In this document: positions 10,797 to 37,109 of the stretch, piece by piece
Numbering within the stretch: position 1 is the first letter of the stretch
How the letters are laid out: the number at the start of each line of letters is the position of its first letter
Origin: an uncultured Bacteroidales bacterium
Lineage (GTDB): Bacteria; Bacteroidota; Bacteroidia; Bacteroidales; FEN-979
Length of the DNA: 38,925 nt
Assembly: GCA_903875045.1 (NCBI GenBank)
Contig: CAIQUS010000106.1
Location: 1 to 38,925, forward strand
Direction: 5' to 3'
Notes under the pieces: model-generated
The model's input: the letters and a program-made list of their open reading frames with translations, nothing else
Database searches by the model: none
Told to the model about the DNA's origin: nothing
Program-made: the position numbers and the translations under genes

Positions 10797-11189
10797 ATGG
10801 CAACAATATTCACACGGATTGTTCAAGGTGAAATCCCATGCTATAAAATTGCTGAAGATGATAATTTTCTGGCATTTCTTGATATAAACCCTCTTCAGGA
10901 AGGTCATACCTTGGTGATCCCGAAAAAGGAGGTTAACTATATTTTTGATATTGAGGATGATCTGCATGCCGGATTGTGGAATTTCGCAAAAAAAGTCGCA
11001 AAGGCACTCGAAAAAGTTATCCCTTGTCAGCGCATTGGTGTTACTGTGATTGGATTGGAAGTACCACATGCACACATTCACCTGATTCCATTGAAAACCA
11101 TGTTCGATATGGATTTTAAAAGGTCTAAACTAACATTTACACCGGAAGAGTTTAAAAGTATCGCAGATAGAATCGCAAAGCTGGTTTAA
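10797..11189 (+). CDS. HIT family nucleotide hydrolase/transferase (Hint-like)
   Basis: A 130-residue protein with the histidine triad motif HAHIHLIP, His91-x-His93-x-His95, preceded by the family's FLDINPLQEGHTLVIPKK block (27-44). HIT proteins hydrolyse phosphoramidate or dinucleotide bonds on the alpha-phosphate of nucleotides, with the middle His as nucleophile; the substrate here is unknown. The gene starts 2 bp after greA. Its stop is followed by 52 bp that are almost wholly an 8-bp repeat array, after which the convergent purF-like gene ends. Confidence 0.93.
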   Translation: MATIFTRIVQGEIPCYKIAEDDNFLAFLDINPLQEGHTLVIPKKEVNYIFDIEDDLHAGLWNFAKKVAKALEKVIPCQRIGVTVIGLEVPHAHIHLIPLKTMFDMDFKRSKLTFTPEEFKSIADRIAKLV

Positions 11190-11192
11190 GAT

Positions 11193-11240
11193 GGTAAACT
11201 AGTGAACTGGTAAAGTGGTAAAGTGGTAAACTGGTAAACT
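11193..11240. repeat. GGTAAACT octamer array, 6 units, between convergent genes
   Basis: Six tandem 8-bp units (GGTAAACT, AGTGAACT, GGTAAAGT twice, GGTAAACT twice) fill 48 of the 52 bp between the HIT stop codon and the stop codon of the convergent gene. Related arrays are at 26380-26475 and 33376-33430. There is no spacer structure. Confidence 0.92.
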
Positions 11241-13186: not shown

Positions 13187-13217
13187 TTGTTTAGCTGGGA
13201 AAACAGGCTTATTTTTG
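13187..13217 (+). promoter_or_regulatory. Promoter of the selenium operon
   Basis: TTGT (13187-13190) and, 19 bases on, TATTTTTG (13210-13217), an exact TAnnTTTG. A start site about 6-7 bases later leaves a leader of roughly 15 nt before ATG 13239. The alternative TTG start at 13215 would lie inside this element, which decides for the ATG. Confidence 0.5.
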
Positions 13218-13238
13218 ACAAATACTGTAAACCCAACA

Positions 13239-14294
13239 ATGATCCTGCCCATCGAACCAACCTGTTTTGTACAGGAGGCTAAGAAGTATCCGGTGATTGA
13301 TGTCCGGTCGCCGGGAGAGTTTAACCAGGGCCATATTCCCGGTGCGTTCAATCTTCCTTTATTCACTGATGCCGAACGGGCTGTGGTGGGGACACTTTAT
13401 GTTAAGTCGGGCAGGGAGTATGCTGTGCTCAAAGGGCTGGATTATGCGCTGCCAAAAACAGGTTGGTATATCGATTCTCTGCAGACTTTCAGTTCAACCC
13501 AGAAGATATTATTGCATTGCTGGCGTGGCGGCCTCAGAAGTTTATTAATGGCCGAAGTTTTCAGTAAAGCCGGTTATGAGGTTGCTTTACTCTCAGGCGG
13601 GTATAAAGATTACAGGCGATTTATCCGTGAAGATCTTTCAAGACCAGGGAAAATAATTGTTTTGGGAGGTTTTACCGGGACAGGTAAAACAGCATTATTG
13701 AAATCGATTGCTTCAAAAGGCGAACAAGTGGTTGACCTTGAAGGGTTGGCCTGTCATAAAGGTTCTGTTTTCGGCGCATTGGGTCAACCGGCTCAACCGA
13801 CAAATGAACAATTTGAAAATAATTTGTATTCCCGGTGGTCCGATCTTGATTTTTCAAAAATGATATGGGTGGAAGATGAAAGCCGGATGATCGGTAAGGT
13901 TACGCTACCTGACCCGATAGTGGAACATATCAGCAGCAGTCCATTGATCAGGGTTGACCTGGATGCTTCCATCAGGATTAAAAGGTTGGTAATGGAGTAT
14001 GCGGGGTATGATAAGGAACTCCTTTCCGATGCCATTATCAGAATCGGAGAAAGACTGGGGGGCACAAGAACCAGGGAAGCAATTACAGCGATCGAAAATA
14101 GCCGGTTTGATGAGGTTGCAACCATTGCCTTGTCGTATTATGATAAAGCGTATCTTTTTTCAACAGTGCGCAGAAAGAATAAAACTGTGCATGATTTTCT
14201 GATTTCAGGAGAAGATATTGAAACAGATGCAGCACATCTCATAGAATTTAGCTATAAATACATTCAACATGGAACCGATTTACCTCGATTATAA
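13239..14294 (+). CDS. mnmH: tRNA 2-selenouridine synthase (MnmH/SelU)
   Basis: A 351-residue enzyme that replaces sulfur by selenium in 2-thiouridine at the wobble position of tRNAs for Lys, Glu and Gln, using selenophosphate. The N-terminal rhodanese domain has VIDVRSPGEFNQGHIPGA and the active loop LLHCWRGGLRS with Cys94. The C-terminal P-loop domain has a Walker A GGFTGTGKT at 143-151, then DLEGLACHKGSVFG, both typical of YbbB/SelU. ATG 13239 was chosen because the upstream TTG start lies in the promoter. The last 26 bp overlap the desulfurase-SelD gene, which would supply the selenophosphate it needs, so the two are translationally coupled. Confidence 0.95.
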   Translation: MILPIEPTCFVQEAKKYPVIDVRSPGEFNQGHIPGAFNLPLFTDAERAVVGTLYVKSGREYAVLKGLDYALPKTGWYIDSLQTFSSTQKILLHCWRGGLRSLLMAEVFSKAGYEVALLSGGYKDYRRFIREDLSRPGKIIVLGGFTGTGKTALLKSIASKGEQVVDLEGLACHKGSVFGALGQPAQPTNEQFENNLYSRWSDLDFSKMIWVEDESRMIGKVTLPDPIVEHISSSPLIRVDLDASIRIKRLVMEYAGYDKELLSDAIIRIGERLGGTRTREAITAIENSRFDEVATIALSYYDKAYLFSTVRRKNKTVHDFLISGEDIETDAAHLIEFSYKYIQHGTDLPRL

Positions 14295-16506
14295 TGCCAC
14301 AACACCTGTTGATCCATTGGTGATTGAAGCCATTCGCCCTTACCTGGAGTGTTATTTTGGCAACCCTTCAAGTGTTCATTCTTTCGGTATCCAGTCAAAA
14401 GTAGCCGTGGAAAAGGCTCGGGCCCAAATTGCTGCCCTGGTGAACGCCAAGAGCGACGAAATCGTTTTTACCAGCGGGGGCACAGAATCCAATAATTTTG
14501 CCATCAAAGGAGTAGCGCTTGCAAACAGGGCGAAGGGGAACCATATCATAACCTCTGTCATCGAACACCCTGCTGTAACCGAGGTTTGTCATTACCTCGA
14601 AGAAACTGGTTATAAAGTCACCTACCTGCCAGTTGATGAATTCGGGATAATTGACCCGTATGATGTTCAACAGGCGATTACTCCTCAAACCATACTCATC
14701 ACGGTGATGCATGCCAACAATGAAACCGGAGCGATCCAGCCCATTGCTGAAATAGGGAAAATCGCAAAGGAACATGGGATCATTTTTCATACAGATGCAG
14801 CACAATCGGTCGGGAAAATCATTTTGGATGTTGAACGGATGAATATTGACCTGGCATCTGTTGCCGGTCACAAATTATACGCTCCGAAAGGGGTAGGTGT
14901 ACTTTATATCCGCCGTGGTGTGAAACTGGCAAAATTAATCCATGGTGCCGATCACGAATCTAACCTCAGAGCAGGAACGGAGAATGTGATGGAAATTGTT
15001 GGTTTGGGGAAAGCGGCTGAGATATGTACGATTTATGATTTACGATTTACGACAGAAGACCATCTCTCCGTGGTGTCTCATCCGTCATCGGAAATTCGAA
15101 ATTCGAAATTCGAAATTCAGGCACTTCGCGACAGGTTGCACGATGGAATCCGATCAGCCATTCCGGAGGTAAGACTAAACGGTCATCCTGAACTACGGCT
15201 GCCAAACACATTGAGTCTAGGTTTTCCCGGCGTAGAGGCTGCTCAGCTGCTCGAAGAGATGAAGGGTATCGCGGCATCAGCAGGTGCTGCATGCCATGCT
15301 GACCATGTGGATATTTCCGGTGTTCTTTCTGCCATGCGTGTCCCCATGGAATTTGCCATCGGAACCATTCGTTTTTCGCTGGGAAGGATGACCACCCGTG
15401 AAGAAATTGAAACTGCAATACCGATTATTGTGGAGGCGTACCGGAGATTGAAAGGAGAGGGCGAAATTGGAAATTTGAATTTCCGCCTTACGGAGTATAC
15501 ACATGCATTAGGATGTGCTTGTAAAATCAGGCCTCAGCTTCTGGAAAAAATATTATCAGGCATACCTGGAAAGAACAATCCTGCAATTTTGGTTGGCCAT
15601 GAAACATCTGATGATGCAGCAGTATATCAGATTGATGAAAATACCGCCATTGTTCAAACAGTAGATTTCATACCCCCTGTAGTTGATGACCCATATATGT
15701 ATGGTGCCATCGCAGCGGCCAATGCACTGAGCGATGTGTATGCCATGGGAGGAAAACCATTGTTTGCACTGAGTATTGTAGGGTTTCCCGACCGGAAGCT
15801 GCCCATTGAGGTTTTACAGCAAATTCTAAGGGGTGCTAGCGATAAAGTTGCTGAGGCCGGTATTCAGGTGATCGGGGGGCACAGCATTGAAGACAGTGAG
15901 CCGAAATACGGCCTGGTTGTAACCGGTTTGGTTCATCCCGCAAAAATTCTTCGTAACTCCACAGCCAGGCCAGGTGACACATTGATACTCACCAAGCCTC
16001 TTGGCACCGGGATCATTACTACCGCGATCAAACGAGGGTTGGCCAGTGAATCGGCGGTTAACAGGGTAATGATGGTAATGGCTGAGCTCAATCGCAGCGC
16101 AGCCGAAATCATGGCCGGTTTTGCGGTAAGCGCTTGTACGGATGTTACCGGGTTCGGATTGCTTGGACATTTAAAAGAGATGGTTTACAGCGCAGGTGTT
16201 CAGGCAATTCTGACCACAGAAATGATCCCGGTTCTTGATGCCGCATGGGAATATGCCGCTGCCGGGGCTATCCCGGGAGGGACAAAGAACAACCTTGACT
16301 ATGTGAAGGAAGTTGTGCAGTGGAAGGAAACCACTCCGGAGTTAATGAAATTCATTCTGGCCGATGCCCAAACTTCAGGAGGATTGCTGATTTCGATGCC
16401 TGAGGGTCAGGCAAATGAATTTATTGCAAACCTTCATGCCGCAGGAAACATGGATGCTGCCATCATCGGGAAAGTTGTAACCGGCAAGCCGGGAATCATT
16501 GTTTGA
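14269..16506 (+). CDS. selD: Cysteine desulfurase (NifS-like)-selenophosphate synthase (SelD) fusion
   Basis: A 745-residue two-domain protein. Residues 1-395: PLP-dependent cysteine desulfurase with YLDYNATTPVDP, a TGAIQP loop, the PLP Lys in AGHKLYAPKG (Lys202) and an active-site Cys in SAGAACHAD (Cys342). Residues about 408-745: SelD, which makes selenophosphate from selenide and ATP, with LTEYTHALGCACKI; Cys416 and Lys419 match catalytic Cys17 and Lys20 of the E. coli enzyme, and DDAAVY, VQTVDFIPP, GGHSIEDSEP and DVTGFGLLGHL follow. The catalytic residue is Cys (TGT), not selenocysteine. The fusion would pass selenium freed from selenocysteine directly to SelD, and its product serves the overlapping upstream MnmH. 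Odd features: a roughly 30-residue repeat-derived insert at about 253-284 and a repeat-like junction at about 399-405. Such fusions have, to my recollection, been noted in selenium-gene surveys. Confidence 0.94.
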   Translation: MEPIYLDYNATTPVDPLVIEAIRPYLECYFGNPSSVHSFGIQSKVAVEKARAQIAALVNAKSDEIVFTSGGTESNNFAIKGVALANRAKGNHIITSVIEHPAVTEVCHYLEETGYKVTYLPVDEFGIIDPYDVQQAITPQTILITVMHANNETGAIQPIAEIGKIAKEHGIIFHTDAAQSVGKIILDVERMNIDLASVAGHKLYAPKGVGVLYIRRGVKLAKLIHGADHESNLRAGTENVMEIVGLGKAAEICTIYDLRFTTEDHLSVVSHPSSEIRNSKFEIQALRDRLHDGIRSAIPEVRLNGHPELRLPNTLSLGFPGVEAAQLLEEMKGIAASAGAACHADHVDISGVLSAMRVPMEFAIGTIRFSLGRMTTREEIETAIPIIVEAYRRLKGEGEIGNLNFRLTEYTHALGCACKIRPQLLEKILSGIPGKNNPAILVGHETSDDAAVYQIDENTAIVQTVDFIPPVVDDPYMYGAIAAANALSDVYAMGGKPLFALSIVGFPDRKLPIEVLQQILRGASDKVAEAGIQVIGGHSIEDSEPKYGLVVTGLVHPAKILRNSTARPGDTLILTKPLGTGIITTAIKRGLASESAVNRVMMVMAELNRSAAEIMAGFAVSACTDVTGFGLLGHLKEMVYSAGVQAILTTEMIPVLDAAWEYAAAGAIPGGTKNNLDYVKEVVQWKETTPELMKFILADAQTSGGLLISMPEGQANEFIANLHAAGNMDAAIIGKVVTGKPGIIV
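15027..15118 (+). repeat. Heptamer repeats inserted in the desulfurase domain
   Basis: Four 7-bp units of TACGATT type (15027-15054) and four perfect GAAATTC units (15091-15118) enclose 36 bp of other sequence. All is in frame and encodes about 31 residues after the GLGKAAEI helix and before ALRDRLHDGI. NifS/IscS proteins normally have only a short link there. Both units look like extragenic tandem heptamers of Bacteroidota, comparable with the array at 37047. Confidence 0.85.
15463..15483 (+). repeat. Heptamer-like sequence at the NifS-SelD junction
   Basis: GAAATTG, GAAATTT and GAATTTC follow one another here, imperfect copies or inversions of the GAAATTC unit at 15091. They encode EIGNLNF, directly between the end of the desulfurase domain (VEAYRRLKGEG) and the first conserved SelD residues (RLTEYTHALGC). 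Confidence 0.6.
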
Positions 16507-26377: not shown

Positions 26378-26379
26378 TT

Positions 26380-26475
26380 GGTAAACTGGTAAACTGGTAA
26401 ACTGGTAAACTGGTAAATTGGTAAACTGGTAAACTGGTAAACTGGTAAACAGGTAAACAGGTAAACTGGTAAATA
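26380..26475. repeat. GGTAAACT octamer array, 12 units
   Basis: Twelve uninterrupted 8-bp units start 3 bp after the tetR stop codon: GGTAAACT mostly, with GGTAAATT (26412), GGTAAACA (26444, 26452) and GGTAAATA (26468). No spacers separate the units. Shorter, more diverged arrays of the same unit are at 11193 and 33376. Confidence 0.95.
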
Positions 26476-37046: not shown

Positions 37047-37109
37047 TTCCAAGTCCCAAGTCCCAAGTACCAAGTCCCAAGTCCCAAGTCCCAAATCCCA
37101 AGCTTCAAA
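37047..37109. repeat. TCCCAAG heptamer array, 9 units
   Basis: Nine tandem 7-bp units start 17 bp after the buk stop: mostly TCCCAAG, with TTCCAAG first, TACCAAG, TCCCAAA and a degenerate CTTCAAA last. The period is 7 rather than the 8 of the GGTAAACT arrays, and matches the heptamers inside the NifS-SelD gene. Confidence 0.92.

Follow-up and report, generated by a model that had tools for sequence, protein, structure and literature searches.

The nifS-selD fusion gene, its loop and its linker

We analyzed contig CAIQUS010000106.1 from an uncultured Bacteroidales bacterium (assembly GCA_903875045.1, a 5.96-Mb draft in 253 contigs) and refer to this whole stretch of 38,925 nucleotides as the window. 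It contains a gene in which a cysteine desulfurase (NifS/IscS) is fused to a selenophosphate synthetase (SelD, or SPS), and in which tandem arrays of 7-nucleotide (7-nt) units, located with Tandem Repeats Finder (TRF), are translated as part of the protein. The features of the gene are as follows.

14269 to 16506, plus strand: nifS-selD fusion gene, 745 amino acids (aa), no internal stop, matched by TIGR03402 and TIGR00476
14278 to 15447, plus strand: cysteine desulfurase (NifS/IscS) domain, residues 4-393
15025 to 15123, plus strand: site 1, hypervariable loop, residues 253-285, 33 aa
15027 to 15052, plus strand: TACGATT x3.7 array (TRF, 89% matches), encoding a phase of (YDLRFTI)n
15053 to 15090, plus strand: 38-bp spacer between the TACGATT and GAAATTC arrays, partly 7-nt periodic (CATCCGTCATC)
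15091 to 15118, plus strand: GAAATTC x4.0 array (TRF, 100% matches), encoding (EIRNSKF)n
15451 to 15483, plus strand: NifS-SelD linker, residues 395-405, 11 aa, with degenerate GAAATT-like heptamers
15484 to 16407, plus strand: selenophosphate synthetase (SelD) domain, residues 406-713, with cysteines at a GCAC motif

A model scan of the fusion protein matched TIGR03402 (NifS) at residues 4-393 with 472.4 bits, which is below the cut-off of 530.75 for that model, and TIGR00476 (SelD) at residues 406-713 with 405.8 bits, above its cut-off of 125. A desulfurase followed by a selenophosphate synthetase in a single frame identifies the gene as a NifS-SelD (SPS) fusion. Residues K202 (GHK motif), C342 (AGAAC loop), C416/C418 and K419 (the last three in SelD) are invariant in a 40-row alignment, and we take these to be the catalytic residues of the fusion.

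The TRF results confirmed the two in-frame 7-bp tandem repeats that the first-pass annotation of this DNA had described in the desulfurase domain. The 7-nt periodicity of the loop DNA exceeds that of 1000 codon shuffles (p=0.001), and lag-7 periodicity is likewise found in the linker DNA (p=0.008, codon shuffles). In an AlphaFold2 model, confidence is good outside the loop, and the predicted local distance difference test score (pLDDT) falls below 50 at residues 258-278, between helices at 240-258 and 279-297; the array-bearing loop of the desulfurase domain is thus predicted to be disordered. Because 7 mod 3 = 1, a heptamer array encodes the identical heptapeptide repeat in all three frames of one strand, so whether the array reads open is set by its strand and not by its frame, and its total length alone must fit. 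The opposite strand of the TACGATT array contains a stop.

The fusion gene was compared across 43 genomes of the source organism's Bacteroidales family, one genome per species, with a genus subset of 19 genomes. Both halves of the fusion were matched in all 19 genus genomes and in 42 of the 43 family genomes, the exception being G022, which has only a NifS-like match of 44% identity and no full fusion match. No internal stop was found among the matches listed over the 43 family genomes. Fusions outside the family came from a contig scan of the best 80 of 477 relatives, which yielded 65 unique rows. Altogether, 122 loci gave 117 that passed a motif and length filter on the frame (L123, L126, L165, L211 and L214 had no frame under this filter) and 103 unique rows, 38 from the family and 65 from outside it. 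The five family genomes without a row are G022 and four others (G023, G024, G029 and G033) that failed the filter though they were stop-free among the matches listed.

Taking as the loop all residues that separate the GLGKAAEI motif from the LRDRL motif, we found that it is exactly 14 residues long in 65 of 65 outside fusions, 8-39 residues long in the 38 family rows, and 33 residues long in the source genome. The linker measures 9-23 residues outside the family, with a usual mode of 17-18 aa, as compared with 11-94 in the family and 11 in the source genome. Since the source loop is 33 residues against 14, and the source linker lies within the outside range, the loop shows a net gain of 19 residues and the linker shows none. 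The insert of about 31 residues proposed at first pass must therefore be reduced to 19, and the GAAATT-type triplet noted where the two domains meet holds as a periodic stretch but not as an insert by length.

Periodicity at these two sites sets the family apart. At p<0.01 (codon shuffles; the rows are not independent), 28 of 38 family rows show lag-7 periodicity at the loop, the linker or both, as against none of the 65 outside rows; for the linker by itself the counts are 19/38 and 0/65. When lags 4-12 were scanned, lag 7 was significant in 18/38 family loops and 19/38 family linkers and any other lag in at most 3/38, and at most 1/65 outside fusions was significant at any lag. The remaining 33-codon windows of the family fusion genes were periodic in only 2 of 695 cases. 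Sister species carry different heptamers at the loop and linker, and the encoded peptides vary by species, as in NPKSEIRNQKSEIRNQKSEI (G004), TNDELRMTNDESRM (G005), RTPNTEYRTLIAEPRTP (G013), VTSHESQVTNHQ (G037) and SSIQHPASSIQHPASSI (G031). On a quick tree of 53 rows (all 38 family rows and 15 of the 65 outside rows, hand-picked), built without the loop and linker columns, Fitch counts for the 7-nt state come to at least 7 changes for the loop and at least 9 for the linker. Family member G042 is placed among the outgroup rows on this tree.

Two further observations concern the fusion orthologues. The linkers of genus g7 (L128 in G041 and L217 in G038) contain a 14-residue, SKSPSGDLGVPAKQ-like repeat of about 42 bp, which is a repeat family distinct from the heptamers. 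The NifS-SelD gene of Geotalea sp. SG265 (L205) carries an in-frame TGA where its SelD part begins (residue 400, SCAG-TGA-AAKL), which may represent a selenocysteine form and is to be likened to the Geobacter FRC-32 case described in PMC4561486.

Arrays across the genome and in other genes

The wider survey covered 837,925 bp of the source genome, made up of 40 stretches of eight long contigs (C60, C35, C31, C17, C69, C94, C12 and C59) and the window. At a TRF score of at least 40, this sample contains 86 period-7 rows, 71 period-8 rows, 15 period-9 rows and at most 5 rows of any other period; one codon-block shuffle of the same DNA gave 0 period-7 and 0 period-8 rows. Long heptamer simple repeats are thus over-represented (86 vs 0). 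Merging produced 126 arrays of 7- or 8-nt units, of which 94 are intergenic with both neighbors present, 24 lie inside open reading frames (ORFs) of at least 110 aa, and 8 are unclassified, so that the arrays, like heptamer repeats described elsewhere, are mostly intergenic. Intergenic arrays lie within 10 bp of a 3' gene edge in 61 of 104 cases; 200 random placements within those gaps gave 44.6 on average and at most 53. The 5' edges show no excess (28 of 84 within 10 bp of an array; random mean 24.9, maximum 34).

The two heptamers of the fusion recur elsewhere in the genome. The TACGATT word TACGATTTACGATTTACGA has 150 overlapping exact matches (65+85), and its reversed control has 0; TACGATT arrays are found in 29 of 43 family genomes, whereas among 148 further genomes sampled from the class 7 have them. 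Together with the finding that the loop is 14 aa and aperiodic in all 65 outside fusions, this bears out the earlier proposal that heptamer arrays of an intergenic type entered the gene. The companion claim, that similar heptamers elsewhere are intergenic, is true of most arrays, with GAAATTC as an exception. Of four GAAATTCx3 arrays in the genome, three are in frame within genes, namely the fusion, gldA (an ABC ATPase) and a DUF218 gene, and the remaining one precedes the gldA start by 40 bp. The gldA case is located at L068 1914-1934 (C69:62413).

Family scans covered 20 of the 24 distinct array-bearing frames (one, in L320, was without a match) and also the DUF218 gene, which is outside the 0.84-Mb sample. 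Arrays lie in the interior of alaS, murB, nadE, gldA (in its C-terminal part), two SDRs, an MFS protein, two glycosyltransferases, a FAD_binding_3 oxidoreductase, an AAA_14/DUF4143 protein, an FG-GAP protein and a MurG-MurC frame. In murB the array is placed between the FAD-binding and C-terminal domains, and in nadE (glutamine-dependent NAD synthetase; L313 6633-8345) a 7/8-nt array at residues 252-289 falls between the amidase and synthetase domains. In the alaS gene (L313 11763-14477), residues 413-425 are encoded by an AATCGTC array, and the alaS model aligns to two separate stretches, of which the best-matching one ends at residue 386. Other arrays are near the N-terminus of a TPR protein, a UvrD helicase, an amino-acid permease, an AhpC/TSA protein and a FadL-like protein, and these may be start-site miscalls. 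Orthologues within the genus were compared for three genes besides MurG-MurC, using 18 of 20 loci for GldA, 14 of 18 for the SDR and 18 of 20 for the MFS protein. In the SDR, 6 of 14 orthologues are periodic at lag 7 (p<=0.004) in one shared loop; in the MFS protein, 5 of 18, the source included, are periodic at lag 8 (p<=0.004), again in one shared loop, and G017 has an 8-residue repeat there.

The MurG-MurC frame has an array at the joint between its two parts.

C59:6664-9297 (L326), minus strand: MurG-MurC fusion, its joint occupied by a TGGGATT array, with another short array within the MurG part

Its 878 codons comprise MurG at 13-369, the TGGGATT array at 378-403 and Mur ligase domains at 419-830. 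The junction DNA was read in 41 of the 43 family genomes, G003 and G040 being without a usable junction. Fusion was found in 15 of 18 genus genomes; G002, G011 and G018, like each of the 23 family genomes outside the genus, keep the two genes separate. A 7-nt period (p<0.01) in the 75 nt leading up to the MurC motif is seen at 9 of the 15 fused junctions and 0 of the 26 separate ones (Fisher p=1.4e-5, uncorrected for kinship). Where the genes are separate, an ATG is found approximately 10-15 codons upstream of the MurC motif. No in-frame ATG, GTG or TTG occurs within 60 codons before this motif in G000, G004 or G010, the source genome being one of these three; because of this lack of a start codon, there is hardly any way for these genomes to produce MurC other than in fused form. 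In G043, which belongs to another family, murG and murC are separate and the gap between them contains a heptamer array (lag-7 p=0.001; L374, G043:C6:51647-54330), a possible intermediate state in a model of fusion. We conclude that heptamer arrays probably made, or at least colonized, the MurG-MurC fusion of the genus.

A class-wide scan, with 118 of 119 genomes matched, gave a long apparent open frame in at least 13 genomes besides the source. MurG-MurC fusion elsewhere in the class was rejected on the basis of the eight junctions read, of which seven have a stop shortly before the MurC motif and one, in G096, has 57 open codons only. The G101 junction is borderline (lag-7 p=0.0020 over 105 nt and p=0.0505 over 75 nt).

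Origin of the arrays

We consider it very likely that the arrays in the fusion gene are one instance of a genome-wide process of 7- and 8-nt arrays in this Bacteroidales family, and that they entered the NifS-SelD fusion and did not make it. As we envisage this process, tandem 7-nt (and 8-nt) units of many sequences fill intergenic gaps and persist in genes where the protein tolerates added sequence and the array reads open. Growth would proceed by 7-nt replication slippage combined with dispersal of particular heptamers, and selection would retain those arrays located in loops, in linkers or at ends. In NifS-SelD, the arrays occupy the loop between two helices of the desulfurase and, in sister species, the interdomain linker, with turnover between species. 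The insert is probably near-neutral and probably leaves both enzyme activities intact. With somewhat less assurance, we lean toward the broader view that 7- and 8-nt arrays are a continuing source of new protein sequence, providing loops and linkers at recurrent sites in many conserved enzymes and also fusions, by the replacement of stop-start junctions between adjacent co-directional genes, of which MurG-MurC would be a case.

Several observations weigh against these readings. All eight sampled contigs had matches in a prior array search, and their array density may exceed the genome mean. No donor, target-site duplication or mobile unit was seen for the arrays, and no population polymorphism was seen in a set with one genome per species. 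A 111-bp query containing both arrays and the spacer gave 53 matches in the genome (40 of 166 candidates scored), which cover one array or the other and short flanks. The loop and linker bounds rest on a single MAFFT alignment. Ten of the 38 family genes (G001, G007, G010, G015, G018, G028, G034, G035, G041 and G042) have no significant periodicity at either site, and G010, G015, G035 and G042 are also near-ordinary in loop and linker length. Support is under 80 for 18 of the 50 inner branches of the quick tree, and the Fitch counts are blind to gain as opposed to loss; single inheritance followed by mutation of the arrays fits part of the pattern. In the other genes, periodicity of GldA orthologues is weak (lag-7 p<=0.004 in 3 of 17, the source included; L266 is without the region), and the source genome's own SDR is not significant (lag-7 p=0.062). 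For MurG-MurC, the other 12 fused frames have at least one ATG, GTG or TTG within 60 codons, which leaves an internal start possible, and G011, where the genes are separate, clusters on the NifS-SelD tree (support 85) with G016, where they are fused. Six fused cases (G001, G006, G007, G010, G015 and G017) have no significant periodicity, which speaks against a necessary role of the repeats; these aperiodic junctions may reflect array decay or another route to fusion.

A composite mobile element made up of both arrays and the spacer was rejected, since none of the candidates scored for the 111-bp query was a further copy that extends across the spacer.

It is possible, though we think it doubtful, that the arrays have a purely local origin, having grown in situ by 7-nt slippage from loop codons without any intergenic insertion. 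The different heptamers at shared sites in sister species are consistent with such growth, as is the tendency of each site to keep its period, with 7 nt in both the fusion and the SDR but 8 nt in the MFS protein. Moreover, heptamers are reported to rank first in abundance among long simple repeats in most genomes, and polymerase slippage has been proposed to explain them (Mrazek 2007, as cited in PMC4679880). However, local growth would not lead one to expect the same words to recur, as TACGATT does through its 150 matches and 29 family genomes and as GAAATTC does in gldA, the DUF218 gene and the fusion, nor two different heptamers present elsewhere in the genome to co-occur within a 92-bp stretch of the fusion gene.

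We regard as improbable a contingency switch, in which a change of one unit would shift the frame, silence SelD and part of NifS, and make selenium use phase-varying. Units of 7 nt do shift the frame, and four perfect GAAATTC units could slip, but the array is short and the matches listed over the family are free of internal stops. Arrays are also present in the housekeeping genes alaS, murB, nadE and murG-murC, and switching these off is expected to be lethal. That the gene is an assembly artefact or a decaying pseudogene is more improbable still. The assembly is a draft of 253 contigs, 79 of the 80 named relatives (best 80 of 477) are titled as metagenome-assembled genomes, and arrays may break or distort assemblies; against this stand the stop-free matches in 42 other family genomes, the invariant columns over 40 aligned sequences and the good model confidence outside the loop.

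The least credible proposal is the other half of the first-pass hypothesis, that a gap of repeats between separate nifS and selD genes was turned into a linker and so produced the fusion; although 19/38 family linkers are periodic and the same mechanism fits MurG-MurC, the source linker (11 aa) is shorter than the outside mode, and we reject repeats as the cause in view of the fusions without periodic linkers in many phyla. By their record titles, the best 80 of 477 relatives place the fusion in Bacteroidota, Zixibacteria, Eisenbacteria, Acidobacteriota, Planctomycetota, Anaerolineales and others; that the fusion should occur in distant phyla with non-periodic linkers (0/65, at 9-23 aa) is the very outcome that the hypothesis had named as its own refutation. 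Ordinary-linker fusions were also known earlier, the accessible text of PMC4561486 reporting two prokaryotic instances of NifS-SPS (SelD) fusion; these have the same order, with NifS N-terminal to SelD, and a repeat-filled loop or linker goes unmentioned in that text.

The invasion of this gene by arrays of a genome-wide type can be compared with known systems, as described in open-licence articles in PubMed Central (PMC). Rickettsia palindromic elements (RPEs; Ogata et al. 2000, via PMC2229807) occur in frame within conserved genes, with 19 reading frames named, and also between genes, and the insert in gmk is described as not harming the enzyme. RPEs and the Bacteroidales arrays are alike in lying in frame within conserved protein genes (PMC2229807), but RPEs are 105-146 bp long with terminal inverted repeats, whereas the Bacteroidales arrays consist of 7-8 nt tandem direct units of many sequences, with no palindrome. 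TAACTGA heptamers are found in marine Beggiatoaceae, Cyanobacteria and some Bacteroidetes, mostly between genes, with some overlapping or inside ORFs (MacGregor 2015, PMC4679880). These repeats are likewise 7-nt, tandem and genome-wide, and one is at the very end of a MurG. That system, however, has one dominant heptamer, mostly located just upstream of starts, and most of its arrays within genes affect hypothetical proteins or the ends of proteins (PMC4679880), whereas the Bacteroidales family has many heptamers and octamers, in interior loops of conserved enzymes and at a fusion joint. The arrays described here do not fall within the TAACTGA type: the units in the window are TACGATT, GAAATTC and others, there is no excess at 5' edges, and the genome was not searched for TAACTGA itself. 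The GGGAATC and GGGGA(C/T)T heptamers of Xanthomonas and Nostoc are over-represented in intergenic DNA (PMC4692102), as are those of the Bacteroidales family.

Heptamers inside ORFs (PMC4679880) and in-frame repetitive DNA in Rickettsia (PMC2229807) are therefore already known. In the accessible portions of the open-licence literature in PMC we found neither heptamer arrays inside conserved Bacteroidales genes nor a heptamer-joined MurG-MurC, and the repeated occupation of the same interior enzyme loops by differing 7- or 8-nt arrays was likewise not found there. The origin of bacterial loops, linkers and fusions is usually inferred long after the event, and the 19 genus genomes display many stages, from near-ancestral loops through near-perfect and decayed arrays, and from separate genes to array-joined fusions. 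They take the phenomenon of repetitive DNA within genes, familiar from Rickettsia, down to the smallest units, of 7-8 nt, and frame-independent coding offers a simple reason for array survival in genes. Annotations of genomes in this family will include repeat-encoded segments.

Neighboring gene and other arrays in the window

The remaining features of the window are listed below; strand is given where it applies.

13215 to 14294, plus strand: mnmH (selU), tRNA 2-selenouridine synthase (NF008750, E 1.5e-106; TIGR03167, E 1.5e-97; both above cut-off)
11192 to 11240: TGGTAAAC octamer array filling the gap between convergent stops at 11189 and 11242, 2 and 1 bp away
26379 to 26473: TGGTAAAC octamer array x11.9, beginning 1 bp past the stop of a TetR-like gene
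37049 to 37102: CCAAGTC heptamer array x7.7, intergenic, 19 bp past a stop codon

The last of these confirms that the array reported near 37047 is intergenic. Between 26379 and 26512, the TGGTAAAC array is followed by inverted units (GTTTACCC x2.9), and the two arrays could pair. A perfect tetranucleotide array, TCAA x8.2, lies at 436-468, outside the listed ORFs of at least 60 aa. The start of the fusion gene overlaps the end of mnmH by 26 bp, and because of this overlap the two genes are probably co-transcribed. The adjacency of mnmH, taken together with established knowledge of the pathway, suggests that the fusion probably supplies selenophosphate for tRNA selenouridine.

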